A DNA stretch of 64,000 bases from Syntrophobacterales bacterium (GTDB lineage Bacteria; Desulfobacterota; Syntrophia; Syntrophales; UBA5619). Made by a program: the position numbers and the translations under genes. Positions 29,914-51,924 of this stretch are shown here, one piece after another. Every line of letters begins with the position of its first letter. Position 1 is the first letter of the stretch. The stretch lies in the NCBI GenBank assembly GCA_019429105.1, contig JAHYJE010000007.1, forward strand, positions 1 through 64,000, read 5' to 3'. A model generated the notes under the pieces. It made no database searches, was not told where the DNA came from, and saw only the letters and a list, made by a program, of their open reading frames with translations.

Positions 29914-30009
29914 ATGAAAAGTGTGGATGAAATGACCGTGAATAATGCCTGCAAAAACTGGCGCTGGTGGAGCAAATACGAAGGGGAGAGGTTTGCCGAC
30001 CGCGCTTGA
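29914..30009 (+). CDS. trpL: trp operon leader peptide
   Basis: A 31-residue leader with Trp codons at positions 16, 18 and 19 (KNWRWWSKYEG, codons 29959-29970) ending at TGA 30007-30009. An internal ATG at 29932 could be the true start. Downstream, AGGTTTGCC (29989-29997) can pair with GGCAGCCT (30039-30046), the 5' arm of the terminator, with one bulged base; that would be the antiterminator formed when the ribosome stalls on the Trp codons. It sits 133 bases before trpE, as expected for classic ribosome-mediated attenuation. Confidence 0.85.
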   Translation: MKSVDEMTVNNACKNWRWWSKYEGERFADRA

Positions 30010-30034
30010 CCATCATTGATGTAAAAAAATACAG

Positions 30035-30069
30035 CCGTGGCAGCCTCTTTAGGCAGCCACGGTTTTTTT
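30035..30069 (+). terminator. trp attenuator terminator
   Basis: CCGTGGCAGCCT, loop CTTT, AGGCAGCCACGG (one A/A mismatch) followed by TTTTTTT. It lies 26 bases after the leader stop codon. Confidence 0.9.
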
Positions 30070-30070
30070 G

Positions 30071-30124
30071 TTTTCAGGATTAAAAAAGGCCGTGACGATT
30101 CGCGGCCTTTTTTAATCCTGAAAA
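30071..30124 (+). terminator. Second, 22-bp perfect hairpin between attenuator and trpE
   Basis: Arms 30071-30092 and 30103-30124 are perfect 22-base inverse copies with a 10-base loop. The core AAAAAAGGCCG...CGGCCTTTTTT is itself a bidirectional terminator. It begins one base after the first terminator's T-run and ends 5 bases before GGAG of trpE, so it may add a second termination step or affect trpE translation. Confidence 0.85.
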
Positions 30125-44693: not shown

Positions 44694-45449
44694 TTATTTT
44701 CGCAGCAGTTCCGCCAGCGCCCCAGTGTTTCGCTCGGCGATCAGTCCTTTTACCAGGGAAAGGTTTTTCTCGTAACATTCGACAACCTGCATGATATGGG
44801 GATTTTTTGTAAGAATTGACGCGTACAAGTCAGCATTGGCCCCAAATACCCTGGCGCCCAGCGCTTGTTTTGCCCGGAATATCGGGGTCGAAAATGCCCC
44901 CAGTTCTGATTGCTTTCTGCCTGAATCCCGCAGGGCAAGCTCCATCAGGATCGTATTGAAATGGGTCAGCCCCTGGATAAGGGACATCATTCGGTCGTGC
45001 TCCGCGGGGCTTGTTATGGTCACCCGGGTGCCGCGCGCCTCAAAAAGCCCACTCAAAAAAGATAGCCAGCTCTCCCCCCGGCCGGGGCAGAGGATGATGT
45101 TGTTGCCATGCAGCGAGGAAACGTCTGGCCCAAAGAGGGGGTGGCAACCTATTACTTCGGCGCTGGTTGCGGCGAGCATTGCCCTTACCGATTCTTCCTT
45201 CAGAGAGGTAAGATCCATCAGGAGCGAGTCAGCGGCAAGATGCGGCCCGATTTTCCTGATAACAGCGATTGTGGCGGCAATGGGGACGGCCACGACAACG
45301 ATGCGGCAGAGGGCGGCGAGTTCAGCTGCCGGCAAACCCGTTTTTCTCCCCGCTACATGAACGGCGTATCCTTCCCGGACAAGAAAATCGGCGAACCACT
45401 GACCGATCCCTCCGGTTCCTCCAATAATCCCGATCGCAAAGTCACTCAT
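44694..45449 (-). CDS. tyrA: Prephenate/arogenate dehydrogenase
   Basis: A 251-residue NAD(P)-dependent enzyme of tyrosine synthesis. IGIIGGTGGIGQWFADFL is the nucleotide site, LMDLTSLKEESV and VIGCHPLFGPDVSSLHG (active-site His) are typical TyrA motifs, and IQGLTHFNTILM follows. No chorismate mutase or ACT domain is fused. It is the last of seven coupled aro genes and overlaps aroC by 8 bp. Confidence 0.93.
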   Translation of the reverse strand: MSDFAIGIIGGTGGIGQWFADFLVREGYAVHVAGRKTGLPAAELAALCRIVVVAVPIAATIAVIRKIGPHLAADSLLMDLTSLKEESVRAMLAATSAEVIGCHPLFGPDVSSLHGNNIILCPGRGESWLSFLSGLFEARGTRVTITSPAEHDRMMSLIQGLTHFNTILMELALRDSGRKQSELGAFSTPIFRAKQALGARVFGANADLYASILTKNPHIMQVVECYEKNLSLVKGLIAERNTGALAELLRK

Positions 45450-46515
45450 CAGTCACCCCGCCCCCTTGGATCGCCCGCTGCCGAAGCAGGTGATCGGCAA
45501 GCGCCAGGCAGACCATCGCCTCGCAAACCGGAATGATCCGGGGAATAGCCGCCGCATCGTGTCTGCCTCCGATTTCGACAGTAACGGGGTTGCCGTGAAT
45601 GTCTATGGTATCCTGCGCAAGCGCGATCGAGGGAATCGGTTTGCAGGCAGCGCGGATGACTATTTCGTTGCCATTGGCAATGCCCGCCAGGATGCCGCCG
45701 GCATTGTTAGTCCGGAAGCCCTCCTTTCCCATCTGGTCATTGCAGGTGGAACCGGTCATTCTTGCCGCCGCAAAGCCGGCCCCGATCTCCACGCCCTTGA
45801 CCGAGCCTATCCCCATCAAGGCGCCGGCCAGATCGGCATCTAACTTGGAAAAGACCGGCGCCCCAAGGCCGGCGGGACATCCGCGGACGATAACCTCAAC
45901 AATCCCGCCCACGGTATCCCCCGCCTTTCTCGCCTCCGCGAGGCGGGCGATCATCCTTTTTTCCGCTTTCGGATCGGGACAGTAAAGCGGCCCGGCGGGG
46001 CGCGCCGCAGGGACGGGCCCGGCGGCGGATATTCCGCCCAACTCCCGGGTAAAGGCAAACACCTCCATTCCGGCCGCAGAGATTATTTTTCGCGCGACGG
46101 CGCCCGCCGCAACCCGGCCGGCAGTCTCGCGGGCGGAAGCGCGCCCGCCGCCCCGGTGATCGCGAATCCCGTACTTGGCCTGGTAGCTGAAATCGCCGTG
46201 ACCCGGCCGAAAAAGATTCCGCAACCCTTCATAGGCGCCTTCATCGACATCCCGATTGCTGATTAAAAGAGAAATAGGCGTTCCCGTTGTCTTTCCTTCA
46301 AAAACCCCCGACAGAATCTGCACAATGTCTTCCTCGCGTCTGGGACTTGTCGAGGGCAGCCCGCCGGGCTTGCGTCGCTCCAAATCCTGCTGGATATCGG
46401 CAACGGTCAGCGGAATCCGGGGAGGACAGCCGTCGATCACCGCCCCGATCGCCGGACCGTGCGATTCCCCCCATGTTGTTACCCTGAACAATGTGCCAAA
46501 TGTGTTGCCGGCCAT
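45442..46515 (-). CDS. aroC: Chorismate synthase
   Basis: A 357-residue FMN-dependent enzyme forming chorismate from EPSP. GNTFGTLFRVTTWGESHGPAIG is the first signature (within residues 3-24), GDFSYQAKYGIRDHRGGGRASARET the second, and RHDAAAIPRIIPVCEAM the third. ATG at 46515 is set by homology; TTG/GTG codons lie just upstream. Fifty-odd codons of aroK separate it from aroA. Confidence 0.95.
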   Translation of the reverse strand: MAGNTFGTLFRVTTWGESHGPAIGAVIDGCPPRIPLTVADIQQDLERRKPGGLPSTSPRREEDIVQILSGVFEGKTTGTPISLLISNRDVDEGAYEGLRNLFRPGHGDFSYQAKYGIRDHRGGGRASARETAGRVAAGAVARKIISAAGMEVFAFTRELGGISAAGPVPAARPAGPLYCPDPKAEKRMIARLAEARKAGDTVGGIVEVIVRGCPAGLGAPVFSKLDADLAGALMGIGSVKGVEIGAGFAAARMTGSTCNDQMGKEGFRTNNAGGILAGIANGNEIVIRAACKPIPSIALAQDTIDIHGNPVTVEIGGRHDAAAIPRIIPVCEAMVCLALADHLLRQRAIQGGGVTDE

Positions 46516-46584
46516 GATCACCAAACCCTTTCTTCATAAAAACTACTTTTATCCTTCTTTCTGACGGCGCGCTGCCAGGGGTCT

Positions 46585-47136
46585 TTACCCCTGATCCCCC
46601 GGAGGAAAAGGGCCGAATATTTCAGGAAAGGCGCCACCAATGATGGCTGCAACCTCCTTTTCGGCAAGCGCATCTGTGTCAACTACCAGATCAGCGCTTT
46701 GGCGATAGAGGGGCTCCCGCTGCGCCAAAGTTTTTCTCACTTCCTCGGAGAGCGATTCCCCCGACAAAGACGGGCGATTTTCGCCGCTGGCCGCATCGCC
46801 TTCCATCCGCCCGCTGACAGTATCGGCAGAGGCGACCAGCCAGATTATCCTGCCGTTTTTTTTGAGGCATTGCATATTCGCCGGATCAAGCACGGCGCCT
46901 CCGCCGGTGGCGATAACCACACCTTCCGCCCCGGACACCTCCTCGATCACGGAGCGTTCTTTTTCTCGAAACGCCGTCCAGCCGTCGGCGGCGACGATCA
47001 TGGCGATATTCTTTCCGGCGCGGCCGCAGACCAGCTCATCCGTGTCAAAAAAAGGGCGACCGCTCATCTCTGACAAAAGCCGGCCGATTGTAGTTTTTCC
47101 GGTACAGCGGTACCCGATGAGAATTATGTTCATCAA
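46585..47136 (-). CDS. aroK: Shikimate kinase
   Basis: A 183-residue P-loop kinase. LIGYRCTGKTTIGRLL is Walker A, FFDTDELV binds shikimate and Mg, GWTAFREKER and VIATGGGAVLD complete the shikimate site, and LAQREPLYRQSADL the lid end. The ATG overlaps the aroA stop (ATGA). The stop precedes the aroC start by 69 bp. Confidence 0.94.
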   Translation of the reverse strand: MMNIILIGYRCTGKTTIGRLLSEMSGRPFFDTDELVCGRAGKNIAMIVAADGWTAFREKERSVIEEVSGAEGVVIATGGGAVLDPANMQCLKKNGRIIWLVASADTVSGRMEGDAASGENRPSLSGESLSEEVRKTLAQREPLYRQSADLVVDTDALAEKEVAAIIGGAFPEIFGPFPPGDQG

Positions 47137-48395
47137 TACAGACTCTCCAGAGTTTTCCAGAATCCGGGAAAGGATTTCCCGACGCAGGCCTCATCCTCGA
47201 TCTCCATCCCCGGCGCGCTCAGGCCCAGAATCGCGAAGCTCATCGCAATGCGGTGGTCGTTGTAAGTTTTTATCCGCGCGCCGTGGGGAATTCCCCCTTC
47301 GATAATCAGACCGTCGGGCAATTCCTCGGCAACGATTCCGGTTTTGCGGAGCTCCGCGGCCAAGGCGGCAATCCGATCGCTTTCCTTCAGCCGCAGATGG
47401 GCAACATTGCGGATGATGCTCCGGCCTTGGCGCGCCGCACAGAGCACCGCAAGCGAGGGAACAATATCCGGCATTTTGGCCATATCAAATACCATCTCCC
47501 CGTTCGGCATTTTTCCCCCAAGCACTTCAATCGCTTGCTGTTCGCGGCTGACCGCGCAGCCGAGGTTCTCCAAAACATCCAGAAAGCCGATATCGCCCTG
47601 GCGCGTTTGCGGATCGATGTTCTCCACCCGGAAGCGGCCCTTCAGCAGAGCGGCTGCGAGAAAGAAGTAGGAGGCGCTCGAGGCGTCGCCCTCGATCGTA
47701 AATTCCCGCCCCTGATAGAATTGCCCGCTGGGGACAATGTAACGGTTATTGCCGGCTAATGCAACCCTGACGCCAAACGCAGCCATTGTCTCGATCGTCA
47801 GGGCAATGTAGGGCAAAGAGGGAATCCGCCCCTCCAGGACAATCGTTATCGCCCCGGCAGCGTATGGGGCGGCAATCAGCAGCGAGGACACGTACTGGCT
47901 GCTTCCGATATCGCACAGTACAACTGTGCCGCCCCGCAGCCCGTATCCGCCGATCGTTACCGGCGGATAACCTTTTTCTCCTTCAGTATGGCTCTCTACG
48001 CCAAGAACGGCAAGGGCATCCAGCAGCGGTTTCAAGGGCCGTTCACAGAGGCGGTTGTCGCCGGTCAGCAAAAATGGTCCCTTTCCCAGGGAAACAATCC
48101 CCGCAAGCAGACGCAGCGCTGTGCCGTTATTGCCCAGCGATATCGCCCTGCCGGTTTTCGGGATCGCCCCGCCCGCCCCTTGTATTAACAAATCAGCGCC
48201 GCTCTGCCTTATTTCTACGCCAAGCTTCCGGAACGCCTCGGCAAGAATGAGCGTGTCGTCGGCGACCAGGATATTTTTCAGCCGCGACTCTCCCCGGGCC
48301 AGAGCGGCGATCGCCATCGCCCGCTGCGTCAGGCTTTTCGAACCCGGCAAGCCTACAACCGCCTTGAGATTTGCCAGTGGTTTAATGGCGATCAT
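47133..48395 (-). CDS. aroA: 3-phosphoshikimate 1-carboxyvinyltransferase (EPSP synthase)
   Basis: A 420-residue two-domain enzyme. GLPGSKSLTQRAMAIAALARG has the phosphoshikimate lysine, LGNNGTALRLLAGI the PEP loop, and LRLKESDRIAALAAEL with DHRIAMSFAILGL the C-terminal signature. Asn in NNGTALR and the overall form suggest a class I or I-like enzyme. Overlaps pheA by one base and aroK by four. Confidence 0.95.
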   Translation of the reverse strand: MIAIKPLANLKAVVGLPGSKSLTQRAMAIAALARGESRLKNILVADDTLILAEAFRKLGVEIRQSGADLLIQGAGGAIPKTGRAISLGNNGTALRLLAGIVSLGKGPFLLTGDNRLCERPLKPLLDALAVLGVESHTEGEKGYPPVTIGGYGLRGGTVVLCDIGSSQYVSSLLIAAPYAAGAITIVLEGRIPSLPYIALTIETMAAFGVRVALAGNNRYIVPSGQFYQGREFTIEGDASSASYFFLAAALLKGRFRVENIDPQTRQGDIGFLDVLENLGCAVSREQQAIEVLGGKMPNGEMVFDMAKMPDIVPSLAVLCAARQGRSIIRNVAHLRLKESDRIAALAAELRKTGIVAEELPDGLIIEGGIPHGARIKTYNDHRIAMSFAILGLSAPGMEIEDEACVGKSFPGFWKTLESLY

Positions 48396-49495
48396 TACGA
48401 CGGCTCCCCTTCAGCGCCCCACGGATAGGAACCAAGTATCTTGAGAAAGGCAGTCCTTCCCCTGAGTTCCTCCAGGCACCGCCGCGTCTTTTCCTCTTCG
48501 CCATGGCCGGTGAAATCGGCAAAGAAGAGGTATTCCCAAAGCCGCTCCTTCATGGGCCAGGATTCGATTCTGGTCAGACTTATTCCCGCCTCGGCAAAGG
48601 GAGCAAGGGCATGCTGCAGGGCCCCGGCCGCATGAGCCGTTCCAAAAAGGATCGAGGTCTTGCTTTTTTCCGTGTCCCCCCCCTCCTGCCGGGCCGGTTT
48701 TTTCCCGATGACAAAAAAACGGGTCGTGTTGAGAGGGCTGTCTTCAATGCCCTCGGCCATAATTTTGAGGTTGTAGAAATCAGCGGCCAGGCTGCTTCCG
48801 ACGGCAGCCCCGGAGGGATCGGCAAGCGCCCTGCGGGCCGCCCCCGCCGTGCTTTCCACCTCGATGAGGGAAGCGACCGGCAGGTATCTGCGGAGCCACT
48901 GCTGGGATTGCGCCAGGGCCTGGGGGTGCGAATAAACCTTTTGGACATCCCCCCTCTCGTTGCAATTGGACAGCAGACAAAGCCGTATCCGTAAAAAAAC
49001 CTCCGCCCGGATGACAAGCGGGGTCGCGATCAGACGATCCAACGTCGCCTTAACCGAGCCTTCCGTTGAATTTTCTATGGGAACAATCCCCCAATCATTT
49101 TCCTTCTTTTCGACACTGTTGAAAACATCGGCAATTGCGGACTTGGGCGCGGCCGTGATGCTGTTTCCGAAATGAGCCAGTGCTGCCTGATGGCTGAAAG
49201 AGGCCTCCGGTCCCAGGTAGGCGACGCTAACCGGCGCCTGCAGGGCCCGCGAAGAGGAGATAATCTCCCGAAAAATATTTTTCAGGGAGCAGTCGGGTAA
49301 AACTCCTGCAGTATTTCCCGCGATATTGCGGTAAATATTCTCCTCCTGGGACGGGTCGTAGATTTCGCGGCCAGCCTCTTTTTTGATTCTGCCGATCTGG
49401 AGCGACAAGGAGGCGCGCTCATTGAGAAACCTGATGATTTCGCGATCAACCCCGGTAATTCTTTCCCTTAACTCTTGGAGGGCATTTTCGCTCAT
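48395..49495 (-). CDS. pheA: Bifunctional chorismate mutase/prephenate dehydratase (P-protein)
   Basis: A 366-residue enzyme making phenylpyruvate. Residues 1-85 are an AroQ-type mutase (RERITGVDREIIRFLNERA), 90-265 the dehydratase (AYLGPEASFSHQAA, PIENSTEGSV, catalytic TTRF at 257-260), 283-360 an ACT domain. In the ACT domain the usual ESRP phenylalanine-binding motif reads ESWP (311-314), while GAL is kept; feedback control may differ. Coupled to aroB by ATGA. Confidence 0.94.
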   Translation of the reverse strand: MSENALQELRERITGVDREIIRFLNERASLSLQIGRIKKEAGREIYDPSQEENIYRNIAGNTAGVLPDCSLKNIFREIISSSRALQAPVSVAYLGPEASFSHQAALAHFGNSITAAPKSAIADVFNSVEKKENDWGIVPIENSTEGSVKATLDRLIATPLVIRAEVFLRIRLCLLSNCNERGDVQKVYSHPQALAQSQQWLRRYLPVASLIEVESTAGAARRALADPSGAAVGSSLAADFYNLKIMAEGIEDSPLNTTRFFVIGKKPARQEGGDTEKSKTSILFGTAHAAGALQHALAPFAEAGISLTRIESWPMKERLWEYLFFADFTGHGEEEKTRRCLEELRGRTAFLKILGSYPWGAEGEPS

Positions 49496-50607
49496 AAGCT
49501 AAGTTCCTCCAGCGTTTCTCTCAGGATTTCTTCGCGGATGCCTCCCTGGATGAATGGTTTGCCCAATCTGCGGATCATGACAAAATTGATTATTTTTTTC
49601 CCCCCTTCATGGACATTGAGCTCCGCTTTTTTGTCCAGGGACAACCGTGCCAGAATGGCATCGATATCAATACCCGCTGGAATCTTGTATTGAAACCCGA
49701 CTGCGCGGAGCGCGGATTTGATCCTTTCCCCGTCGCCTGCCGGCAGACCGTGGAGTTTTTCGGAAAGGCGCGCCGCAGCCGCCATGCCGATCGCCACCGC
49801 TTCACCGTGGGATAGCTTGTAGCCGGATGTCGCCTCCACTGCGTGGCCAATGGTGTGCCCAAAATTGAGAATCCGCCGCAGCCCCCCTTCCCGCTCATCG
49901 AGCTCCACAATGCTCTTCTTGATCCGGCAGGCTTCAATAACTATTTTTGTCAAAAACAAAGGGTCCCGCAGGCCGTTTTTACCGGCGGCTTTTTCGATAT
50001 CCTTGAGCAGGGAGGGCCTTTCTATGGCGCCGTATTTGATCACCTCGGCAAAACCGCTCCGGAAAATCGCGTCGGGAAGAGTTTTTAAAAACTCTGTATC
50101 AATAAAGACCCCTTGTGGTTGATAGAAGGTCCCCAGGATATTTTTCCCGGAAACGGCGTCAACTCCGGTTTTTCCGCCGATGCTGCTGTCCACTTGGGCA
50201 AGCAGGGTGGTTGGCATCTGGACAAAGGGAATGCCCCTCATATAGAGCGAAGCGACAAAACCGGTCAGATCGCCGATCACGCCTCCGCCGAGGGCAACGA
50301 GCAGCGTTTGCCGGTCCGCCCCGAGGGAGATCAGGCGCTCGGCAACCTCAAGCACGGAAGCCAGCGTCTTTGTTTCTTCGCCCGGCGGCAGTACGATCCG
50401 CTCTATCCGGAGCCCGGCTTTTTCCAGGGCCTTTTGCACCCGCTCTCCATGCAGGACGTCAATCGTGCTGTCCGTGACGACCACACAGTGGCTTACGGTT
50501 CCGCTTTTGCCCAGCGCCATCCCTGCCCAGTCCAGAATCCCCTCGCCGATATTAATCTGATAGGAGTCGTCACGGTTCTTTTTAAGCGTTAATCCAAGCT
50601 TTCTCAT
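49492..50607 (-). CDS. aroB: 3-dehydroquinate synthase
   Basis: A 371-residue NAD- and metal-dependent cyclase. VALGGGVIGDLTGFVASLYMRG is the NAD loop, QVDSSIGGKTGVD and LNFGHTIGHAVEA carry substrate- and metal-binding residues, and KYGAIERPSLL the metal glutamate region. ATG overlaps the aroF stop. Second gene of the aro operon. Confidence 0.96.
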   Translation of the reverse strand: MRKLGLTLKKNRDDSYQINIGEGILDWAGMALGKSGTVSHCVVVTDSTIDVLHGERVQKALEKAGLRIERIVLPPGEETKTLASVLEVAERLISLGADRQTLLVALGGGVIGDLTGFVASLYMRGIPFVQMPTTLLAQVDSSIGGKTGVDAVSGKNILGTFYQPQGVFIDTEFLKTLPDAIFRSGFAEVIKYGAIERPSLLKDIEKAAGKNGLRDPLFLTKIVIEACRIKKSIVELDEREGGLRRILNFGHTIGHAVEATSGYKLSHGEAVAIGMAAAARLSEKLHGLPAGDGERIKSALRAVGFQYKIPAGIDIDAILARLSLDKKAELNVHEGGKKIINFVMIRRLGKPFIQGGIREEILRETLEELSL

Positions 50608-51632
50608 GACAGCTTCCCGATTTTGTTCTGCATGGCGTCCTGCATAATCCTTACCTCGTCCATCAGGCGGTAAAAAACCTCGGGGCGCAATGACTGCGGC
50701 CCGTCGGAAAGGGCCTTTTCCGGTTCCGGATGGATCTCGATGATCGCCCCATGGGCCCCGACGGCAACCGCCGCGCGGGTAAGCGGAATGATGTATTTCG
50801 CATGGCCGGCGGCATGGCTGGGGTCAATGATAACCGGCAGGTGAGTCAACTCCTTGATTACTGGAACGGCGCTTATATCGAGGGTGTTTCTGGTTGCAGT
50901 CTCGAAAGTGCGGATTCCCCGCTCGCAGAGTATCACCTGGTTGTTTCCCCCGGAGAGGATGTATTCGGCGGACATCAGCAGCTCCTCGATTGTCGTCATC
51001 ATTCCCCGCTTGAGCAGCACCGGCTTGCGGGACAGACCAACCCTTTTCAGCAGGGCAAAATTCTGAACATTGCGGGCGCCGATCTGAAAGATATCGCTGT
51101 AATCCTCGATCAGATCAATATCCTTCGTATCCATGACCTCGGTTACGACCGGCATGCCCATTTTCTCGCCCACATTTTTCAGTATCTTCAGCCCTTCTTC
51201 CCCCATCCCCTGAAAGCTGTAGGGCGAGGTGCGCGGTTTGAAGGCGCCGCCCCGCAGAATCTGGGCGCCGGCCTTTTTGGCGATGTACCCGCATTCCATC
51301 ATCTGTTCCGCGTTTTCGATCGAACAGGGCCCGGCTATTACGGTAAACTGCGGCCCCCCGATTTCCACATTGCCGACCCGGACAATCGTCTCTTTTTCCT
51401 GGAATTCCCTCCCCGCGAGCTTATACGGTTTGAGGATCGGTACGACCTTTTCCACCCCGCGCAAGAAAGCGACGGATTTCAGCAGCACCCTGCCCTGATC
51501 GTTTCCCACGGCGCCGATGATTGTCCGTTCCACCCCCTCGGAAATGTGGGGTCTGTAGCCAGCCGATTCAATCCAGGCCATTACCTCGTGGATATCTTCT
51601 TTTGTTGAGTTTTTTTTCATCAGGATAATCAT
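50604..51632 (-). CDS. aroF: 3-deoxy-7-phosphoheptulonate (DAHP) synthase, type I-beta
   Basis: A 342-residue enzyme opening the shikimate pathway. An N-terminal ferredoxin-like regulatory domain (residues 1-70) precedes the barrel with VIAGPCSIENAEQM, ILRGGAFKPRTSPYSFQG, VLLKRGMMTTIEE and PVIIDPSHAAGH. This is the Thermotoga/Bacillus-type architecture. ATG at 51632 with AAGGGGGC is used; the frame continues upstream to 51878 only because it crosses the non-coding leader. First gene of a seven-gene operon behind the aromatic leader peptide. Confidence 0.95.
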   Translation of the reverse strand: MIILMKKNSTKEDIHEVMAWIESAGYRPHISEGVERTIIGAVGNDQGRVLLKSVAFLRGVEKVVPILKPYKLAGREFQEKETIVRVGNVEIGGPQFTVIAGPCSIENAEQMMECGYIAKKAGAQILRGGAFKPRTSPYSFQGMGEEGLKILKNVGEKMGMPVVTEVMDTKDIDLIEDYSDIFQIGARNVQNFALLKRVGLSRKPVLLKRGMMTTIEELLMSAEYILSGGNNQVILCERGIRTFETATRNTLDISAVPVIKELTHLPVIIDPSHAAGHAKYIIPLTRAAVAVGAHGAIIEIHPEPEKALSDGPQSLRPEVFYRLMDEVRIMQDAMQNKIGKLS

Positions 51633-51648: not shown

Positions 51649-51687
51649 AAAAAAGGCCGTGGCGAGCTTCTCGCTCTTCCCACAGCC
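51649..51687 (-). terminator. Second terminator in the aro leader
   Basis: Minus strand GGCTGTGG and CCACGGCC (one G-T pair) with an inner GAGC/GCTC stem, followed by TTTTTTATT. It ends 17 bases before the aroF ATG. Confidence 0.85.
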
Positions 51688-51693
51688 TGAAAC

Positions 51694-51734
51694 AAAAAAG
51701 CCATGGGCAGCGTCTTTCCGTCTGTCCATGGCTT
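51694..51734 (-). terminator. First terminator (attenuator) in the aro leader
   Basis: Minus strand AGCCATGGACAG and CTGCCCATGGCT (one A/C mismatch) followed by TTTTTTG. It begins 21 bases after the leader peptide stop. Its 5' arm GGACAGAC (51720-51727) can instead pair with GTCTGCCC inside the leader frame. Confidence 0.9.
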
Positions 51735-51754
51735 GGTTAAGTTAAGTTGATTCC

Positions 51755-51841
51755 TTACTTCTCCCTGAGCGCCGGGCAGACCGATCCGATAAAGTAATAA
51801 AACCAATACCAGCTTTCGGAAAAAACATTCGCTCTGCCCAT
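51755..51841 (-). CDS. Aromatic leader peptide of the aro operon (WYWFYYF)
   Basis: A 28-residue frame, ATG at 51841 and TAA at 51755-51757. Codons 11-17 (51811 down to 51791) read Trp-Tyr-Trp-Phe-Tyr-Tyr-Phe: seven aromatic residues in a row. GTCTGCCC at codons 21-23 (51774-51781) can pair with seven of eight bases of GGACAGAC in the terminator's 5' arm. A ribosome stalled on the aromatic codons would leave this pairing free and prevent termination; one reaching the stop would cover it. Upstream GGGCGGGATG may be a weak ribosome site. I know no named gene for it. Confidence 0.85.
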   Translation of the reverse strand: MGRANVFSESWYWFYYFIGSVCPALREK

Positions 51842-51895
51842 TTAACTTACATCCCGCCCAAATATTTATGAACCCCAAACCTCATTTTCGGCGCT

Positions 51896-51924
51896 TACTG
51901 ACCACATGTTTTTTTTCTTGTCAA
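51896..51924 (-). promoter_or_regulatory. Candidate aro operon promoter
   Basis: Minus strand TTGACA (51919-51924), 17-bp spacer, TCAGTA (51896-51901). The -35 is perfect, the -10 poor. Transcription would begin about 45 bases before the leader ATG. The remaining gap to 52093 shows no other feature. Confidence 0.45.

Follow-up and report, generated by a model that had tools for sequence, protein, structure and literature searches.

The attenuators of trp, pheA and pheST in E. coli and its relatives share with the locus described here a leader ORF carrying codons for the end product, RNA segments 1 to 4 making up protector, antiterminator and terminator, and a position before a biosynthetic operon, and thrL and ilvL provide precedent for a single leader that reads several amino acids of a common pathway. 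The thrL and ilvL leaders serve other amino acids and do not stand at the entry of the aromatic pathway, and to our knowledge neither contains a double-terminator relay. Unlike the trp, pheA and pheST attenuators, our locus has codons for three aromatic amino acids, stands at the pathway entry, possesses two extra segments and a second terminator and belongs to another lineage. The nearest precedent for a six-segment relay is the his attenuator of E. coli and Salmonella, in which six segments are likewise used in two registers and the full alternative is BC:DE. In that system, however, only EF is followed by a U run and one amino acid is read, whereas here both 3:4 and 5:6 are terminators. The his stems AB, CD and EF, and an alternative including DE, are set out in PMC10989985.

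There is also precedent for an aromatic-codon leader before a DAHP synthase operon. In C. glutamicum the aroR leader, with Phe-Tyr-Phe, precedes the operon of the DAHP synthase gene aroF and acts through ribosome-stalling attenuation; AroR contains both Phe and Tyr codons, and transcription responds to limitation for Phe but not for Tyr (PMC11802643). The resemblance to our locus is put forward as a functional one: aroR is confined to Phe-Tyr-Phe and belongs to another phylum, and no double terminator is described for it in PMC11802643. A comparative study of Actinobacteria reported trp attenuators but found no conservation of structure in the operons for phenylalanine or tyrosine (PMC1262725), and the main text of a wide-ranging survey of premature terminators makes no mention of the present element (PMC2965389). 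The Salmonella mgtCBR leader, like ours, holds more than one attenuation element; its tandem attenuators reportedly involve two separate ORFs (PMC3641672), whereas here one ORF appears to control two terminators through a relay. In the open-access literature we found no account of the element, nor of attenuation of these genes, in Desulfobacterota.

The locus lies in a contig of a Syntrophobacterales bacterium, of which we analysed a stretch of 64,000 nucleotides (the window). An earlier note on this DNA had proposed that an unannotated 28-codon frame with Trp-Tyr-Trp-Phe-Tyr-Tyr-Phe at codons 11-17, followed by a terminator, controls a seven-gene aro operon. The frame is present at 51755-51841 on the minus strand, the terminator stem begins about 20 bases downstream of its stop (51734-51694), and GTCTGCCC (codons 21-23) is complementary to GGACAGAC of the terminator 5' arm, as had been claimed. 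The attenuator proves to be larger than was recognized, comprising six segments and two terminators; segment 1 and terminator 2 had been overlooked. The features are as follows.

51919..51924, minus strand: conserved TTGACA, the likely -35 element of the leader promoter (aligned in relatives)
51755..51841, minus strand: leader peptide ORF, 28 amino acids, MGRANVFSESWYWFYYFIGSVCPALREK (ORF translation, conserved in relatives; translation itself not shown)
51791..51811, minus strand: aromatic codon run W-Y-W-F-Y-Y-F, codons 11-17 (translation, codon statistics)
51833..51841, minus strand: segment 1, ATGGGCAGA, start codon region, pairs with 2 (window fold, swap test)
51774..51782, minus strand: segment 2, GGTCTGCCC, pairs with 1 or 3 (swap test, pair counts)
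51694..51734, minus strand: terminator 1, AAGCCATGGACAGACGGAAAGACGCTGCCCATGGCTTTTTT, the 3:4 hairpin and U run (fold, covariation)
51720..51732, minus strand: segment 3, GCCATGGACAGAC, 5' arm of terminator 1, pairs with 2 or 4
51700..51710, minus strand: segment 4, CTGCCCATGGC, 3' arm of terminator 1, pairs with 3 or 5
51649..51688, minus strand: terminator 2, the 5:6 hairpin and U run, conserved (alignment, covariation)
51672..51688, minus strand: segment 5, AGGCTGTGGGAAGAGCG, 5' arm of terminator 2, pairs with 4 or 6
51655..51667, minus strand: segment 6, GCTCGCCACGGCC, 3' arm of terminator 2
50604..51632, minus strand: aroF, DAHP synthase (family model PRK08673, 507 bits)
44694..50607, minus strand: aroB, pheA, aroA, aroK, aroC and tyrA (NCBIfam)

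The operon, aroF-aroB-pheA-aroA-aroK-aroC-tyrA, follows the leader ORF and the terminators on the minus strand. The family models agree with the seven gene assignments made earlier: NCBIfam confirmed aroB, chorismate mutase-prephenate dehydratase (pheA), aroA and aroC, while the aroK product matched the shikimate kinase model with a score just under its cut-off and the tyrA product had a TyrA-type dehydrogenase as its best match, though under the cut-offs. A genome search found one DAHP synthase of the AroF kind in the source genome, the sole other match being distant (35% identity) and probably a KDO8P synthase. Eight of 21 genomes of the same family (G001, G004, G007, G008, G011, G013, G017 and G018) have no DAHP synthase of the AroF kind at E <= 1e-60, which may reflect either missing sequence or loss of the pathway. 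A promoter scan gave nothing above chance; it did not pick TTGACA at 51919..51924, and no -10 element was assigned.

Two other explanations for the DNA upstream of aroF can be dealt with briefly. The frame of aroF is open from a TTG at 51878, and the mechanical ORF list accordingly contains a 424-residue frame, so that the region could in principle encode the start of a longer AroF. We give this essentially no credence, as the leader lies in another frame; the extension was rejected because its frame is closed in relatives (342-343-residue frames in L008, L010, L011 and L013) and because AroF has its own ribosome-binding site and begins at a conserved MII. A T-box or known riboswitch was likewise rejected, there being no Rfam match of this kind; in the window the gathering score is attained by tRNAs alone. 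None of the Rfam leader families (Trp_leader, Phe_leader, His_leader and others) gave a gathering-score match in the window, and at E <= 5 the leader region returned only a chance match to a miRNA.

Aromatic codons make up 5.6% of the codons of the aro operon, so seven in succession would be expected by chance with a p of about 2e-9 per position. The leader was found in all 12 same-family aroF orthologs that have upstream DNA, not counting the window itself (examples are NWYWFYYFYAPVCPMLRRT and YGFWFYYFYAPVCPLLRRT). Among aroF upstream regions of Syntrophales, membership being judged from named records, 70 of 77 contain an ORF with at least 5 of 7 residues aromatic (antisense 11, shuffled 0-5) and 64 of 77 one with at least 6 of 7 (antisense 0, shuffled 0). 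At least four of the seven failing regions retain a leader that is frame-broken, weaker, without its start region or cut by unknown bases. The cluster contains Trp, Phe and Tyr together in 117 of 125 distinct aligned leaders, and Trp codons are absent from it in seven. The element also occurs beyond Syntrophales (L080-L085, L198, L202-L204, L211 and L218). The earlier note would have counted its proposal refuted if neither peptide nor alternative pairing were kept in relatives. The proposal passes this check: relatives in the order and beyond retain, with covariation, the cluster of aromatic codons, the antiterminator pairing 2:3 and the terminator. In a close relative of the window species (L021, L038 and L039) the cluster is degraded to RYRFYCF and both terminators are kept.

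Past the cluster, the leader peptides have a conserved VCPxLRR. Given this conservation of the peptide, VCPxLRR included, one could envisage that WYWFYYF...VCP arrests in the exit tunnel on a free aromatic compound, in the manner of TnaC and tryptophan, rather than that the ribosome stalls for want of a charged tRNA. We regard this as very improbable. The order of W, F and Y within the cluster varies freely among leaders and the last residues vary as well. Moreover, the VCP stretch coincides with segment 2 (consensus GGTCTGCCCAT), which lies inside the leader ORF just past the aromatic cluster and is read as VCP in 111 leaders, as GLP in two and as RSAH in one; in the sister species L003 there is a frame change upstream of it. 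Retention of segment 2 in three frames, together with the frame change in L003, shows that selection acts on the RNA; segment 2 thus explains VCP, and frame changes that preserve the RNA make an arrest motif at the level of the peptide unlikely.

Our preferred reading is that translation of the leader controls the operon through alternative RNA pairings. The alignment reveals six segments in two registers: OFF, with 1:2, 3:4 and 5:6 paired, and ON, with 2:3 and 4:5 paired. Segment 1 (consensus ATGG[GA][CT]AGA) spans or abuts the start codon of the leader, and terminator 2 sits between terminator 1 and the aroF ribosome-binding site, immediately before the latter. Segments 1, 3 and 5 resemble one another, as do segments 2 and 4, and it is this likeness that makes a stem possible for each pair of neighbours.

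Covariation of all five neighbour pairings was observed in a swap test, in which the duplex energy of a segment with its own partner is compared with that obtained with partners from other leaders. With 22 leaders of less than 75% identity, z was -4.4 for 1:2, -4.0 for 2:3, -6.3 for 3:4, -5.9 for 4:5 and -7.1 for 5:6, and for each none of 5000 permutations was as good; the non-neighbour controls gave -0.1 (1:4), -0.6 (2:5), -0.4 (3:6), -0.2 (2:6) and +0.7 (1:6). With 58 representatives of less than 85% identity the corresponding values were -6.5, -5.4, -10.4, -8.2 and -12.2, against +1.0, -1.5, -1.3, -0.3 and -1.1 for the controls. That neighbours and non-neighbours behave so differently speaks against common descent or nucleotide composition as the source of the signal. 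Pair counts in 51 leaders gave 90.4% of cells paired for 2:3, with 5 of 11 pairs changed on both sides, and 93.5% for the terminators, with 13 of 23 pairs changed on both sides.

Fixed-column counting is uninformative on its own for 4:5. Its core columns and those of the control pairing 3:6 are both highly paired because the core, CCATGG, is self-complementary, and 3:6 scores almost as well. The case for 4:5 therefore rests on the swap test and on a flank test, without correction for the tree beyond thinning by identity. When the CCATGG core was left out, the swap test for 4:5 still gave z of -5.1 (57 leaders) and -2.6 (21 leaders), with controls near zero. The direction of the terminator-2 arms bears on the same question: reversing them would leave terminator 2 equally stable but would weaken or abolish 4:5, and the direction that favours 4:5 is found in 114 of 114 aro leaders and in 60 of 60 trp leaders, which are not independent owing to shared ancestry.

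These results bear on a simpler scheme, namely that the locus is a single classic attenuator in which only terminator 1 is regulated and 5:6 serves as a backstop terminator or as a processing or stability element, with no relay through 4:5. Segments 1-4 and terminator 1 already constitute a complete attenuator, some members of the phylum with aromatic leaders have a single terminator, and pairing of the 4:5 core is the default outcome of two hairpins that each contain the self-complementary CCATGG. We consider this scheme unlikely, though it cannot be dismissed. The 4:5 pairing covaries as strongly as the terminators whereas 3:6 does not, its signal extends outside the core, and both the aro and the trp leaders of Syntrophales hold the second terminator in the direction that permits 4:5. 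In addition, a strong terminator standing before aroF without any control would shut off the operon, and some means of release would therefore be needed.

Returning to the relay, the pairing energies constrain how it could work. The duplex energies in the window are -20.1 for 3:4 and -21.1 for 5:6, as against -15.8 for 2:3 and -15.9 for 4:5. When the RNA is folded from segment 2 to just short of segment 4, 2:3 is the minimum-energy structure, at -21.7 kcal/mol for the folded stretch; as soon as segment 4 is included, terminator 1 becomes more stable than 2:3. Both terminators would outcompete the ON pairings at equilibrium and the switch must therefore be kinetic, as is usual for known attenuators. 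The leading edge of a ribosome lies about 12 bases ahead of the A site, so whenever a cluster codon occupies the A site the edge would be at or before the start of segment 2, leaving segment 2 free to pair. By the same geometry, a ribosome that had reached the stop codon would cover segment 2 in its 3' portion. The footprint of the stalled ribosome does not extend over segment 1, which is upstream of it, and 1:2 could thus in principle compete during the stall.

The scenario we favour is as follows. When aromatic tRNAs are charged, the ribosome would reach the stop codon and cover segment 2, allowing 3:4 to form, and any polymerase that escaped terminator 1 would meet terminator 2 (5:6). Should charging of Trp, Tyr or Phe tRNA fall short, the ribosome would be expected to stall at codons 11-17 with its edge just before segment 2; 2:3 would then form as soon as segment 3 was made, and segment 4 would remain single-stranded. 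The free segment 4 could capture segment 5 before segment 6 was made and so disable terminator 2 too, in which case a single stall would disable both terminators and the seven aro genes would be transcribed. If the leader were not translated, 1:2 would be predicted to form, hiding the start codon, and both terminators would form. What this scenario infers is the stall itself, the order in which the RNA folds, termination at each of the two sites and a separate response to each of the three amino acids; that all three aromatic amino acids are functionally sensed, and not merely encoded, is likewise an inference.

The sequence features of a ribosome-dependent attenuator are present, namely a run of end-product codons, terminators before the first gene, an antiterminator on the terminator 5' arm and a protector (1:2), so that sequence and covariation support the interpretation. 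In the absence of expression data, we hold it very probable that ribosome-mediated transcription attenuation by leader translation controls the aro operon; the two-terminator relay through 4:5, for which expression data are equally lacking, we consider likely, with less assurance. If correct, these proposals would extend the known designs of attenuation in two ways, by a tri-aromatic sensor that stands where the shikimate pathway begins and by a relay acting on two terminators, the latter predicting less leak than one terminator while still depending on one sensing event. In many relatives (for example L004-L014, though not universally) an AGGAGG is found just 5' of the leader stop. It is weaker in the window (51755-51770, minus strand) and could slow the ribosome over segment 2; no role has been assigned to it.

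The same build was observed at the trp operon of the window, where trpE, on the plus strand near 30.2 kb, is preceded by a leader and two tandem terminators.

29914..30009, plus strand: Trp leader ORF (...NWRWWSKYEGERFADRA) of the trp operon, with W-R-W-W codons
30034..30113, plus strand: tandem terminators of the trp leader, at about 30034-30069 and 30082-30113

A Trp-rich ORF was found upstream of trpE in 68 of 71 regions of Syntrophales; a few of the 68 are weak, and most have three or four Trp codons together. These leaders are nearly always followed by the terminators GCCGTGG.../...CCACGGC and GGCCGTGA.../...TCACGGCC. In one relative (genome G015) trpE is directly preceded by a second, paralogous DAHP synthase gene (L017), which has a Trp-only WWW leader and tandem terminators; the leader of the main DAHP synthase copy, by contrast, is tri-aromatic.

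A covariance model built from the aro leaders (R1) found only two significant places in the source genome, one at the aro leader (2.5e-25) and one at the trp leader (2.9e-8). Across the phylum it matched 234 of 395 genomes and 157 of 246 genera (E <= 0.01) and so detects the element in more than half of the sampled genomes. Part of this breadth may reflect generic tandem terminators or trp leaders. The strongest matches outside Syntrophales that were examined have aromatic leaders, most of which contain the VCP/GLP segment, and have two terminators.

By comparison of coordinates, 27 of the R1 matches immediately precede the gene for ADH synthase. This enzyme, of archaeal type and non-homologous to DAHP synthase, catalyses the entry step of the aromatic pathway; its assignment was confirmed at five loci (TIGR01949). 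An aromatic leader was present at all 38 ADH-synthase loci examined, with two terminators in some families and one in others, but this is not a census because the set includes R1 matches and close relatives. Leaders at ADH-synthase loci include L323, L325, L327, L328, L332 and L333-L362. The architecture is not confined to this aro operon: the trp operon of the window is built likewise, and the element occurs throughout the phylum before two different entry enzymes. We lean towards, without being confident of, a phylum-wide class of leaders whose six-segment relay lets a single stalled ribosome inactivate two terminators in succession, serving both trp (with Trp codons) and aromatic entry (with Trp, Tyr and Phe codons) and kept at the latter whether the entry enzyme is DAHP synthase or ADH synthase. 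That the leader stands before two unrelated entry enzymes shows that regulation follows the metabolic step and not the protein family.

Outside the phylum, a different conserved aromatic leader, FNFYWGFYFFSAGYFAWKKNRY-like, precedes DAHP synthase in Clostridia (L108, L109, L115 and L116) and Calditrichales (L101). The source genome itself contains three further candidate leaders, each with a run of Val/Ile or Leu codons and one terminator, at L231 (contig C3, about 22.8 kb), L233 (C8, about 75.2 kb) and L230 (C30, about 4.8 kb), which precede acetolactate synthase, 2-isopropylmalate synthase and an unidentified protein starting MYEVIWHGRGGQG.
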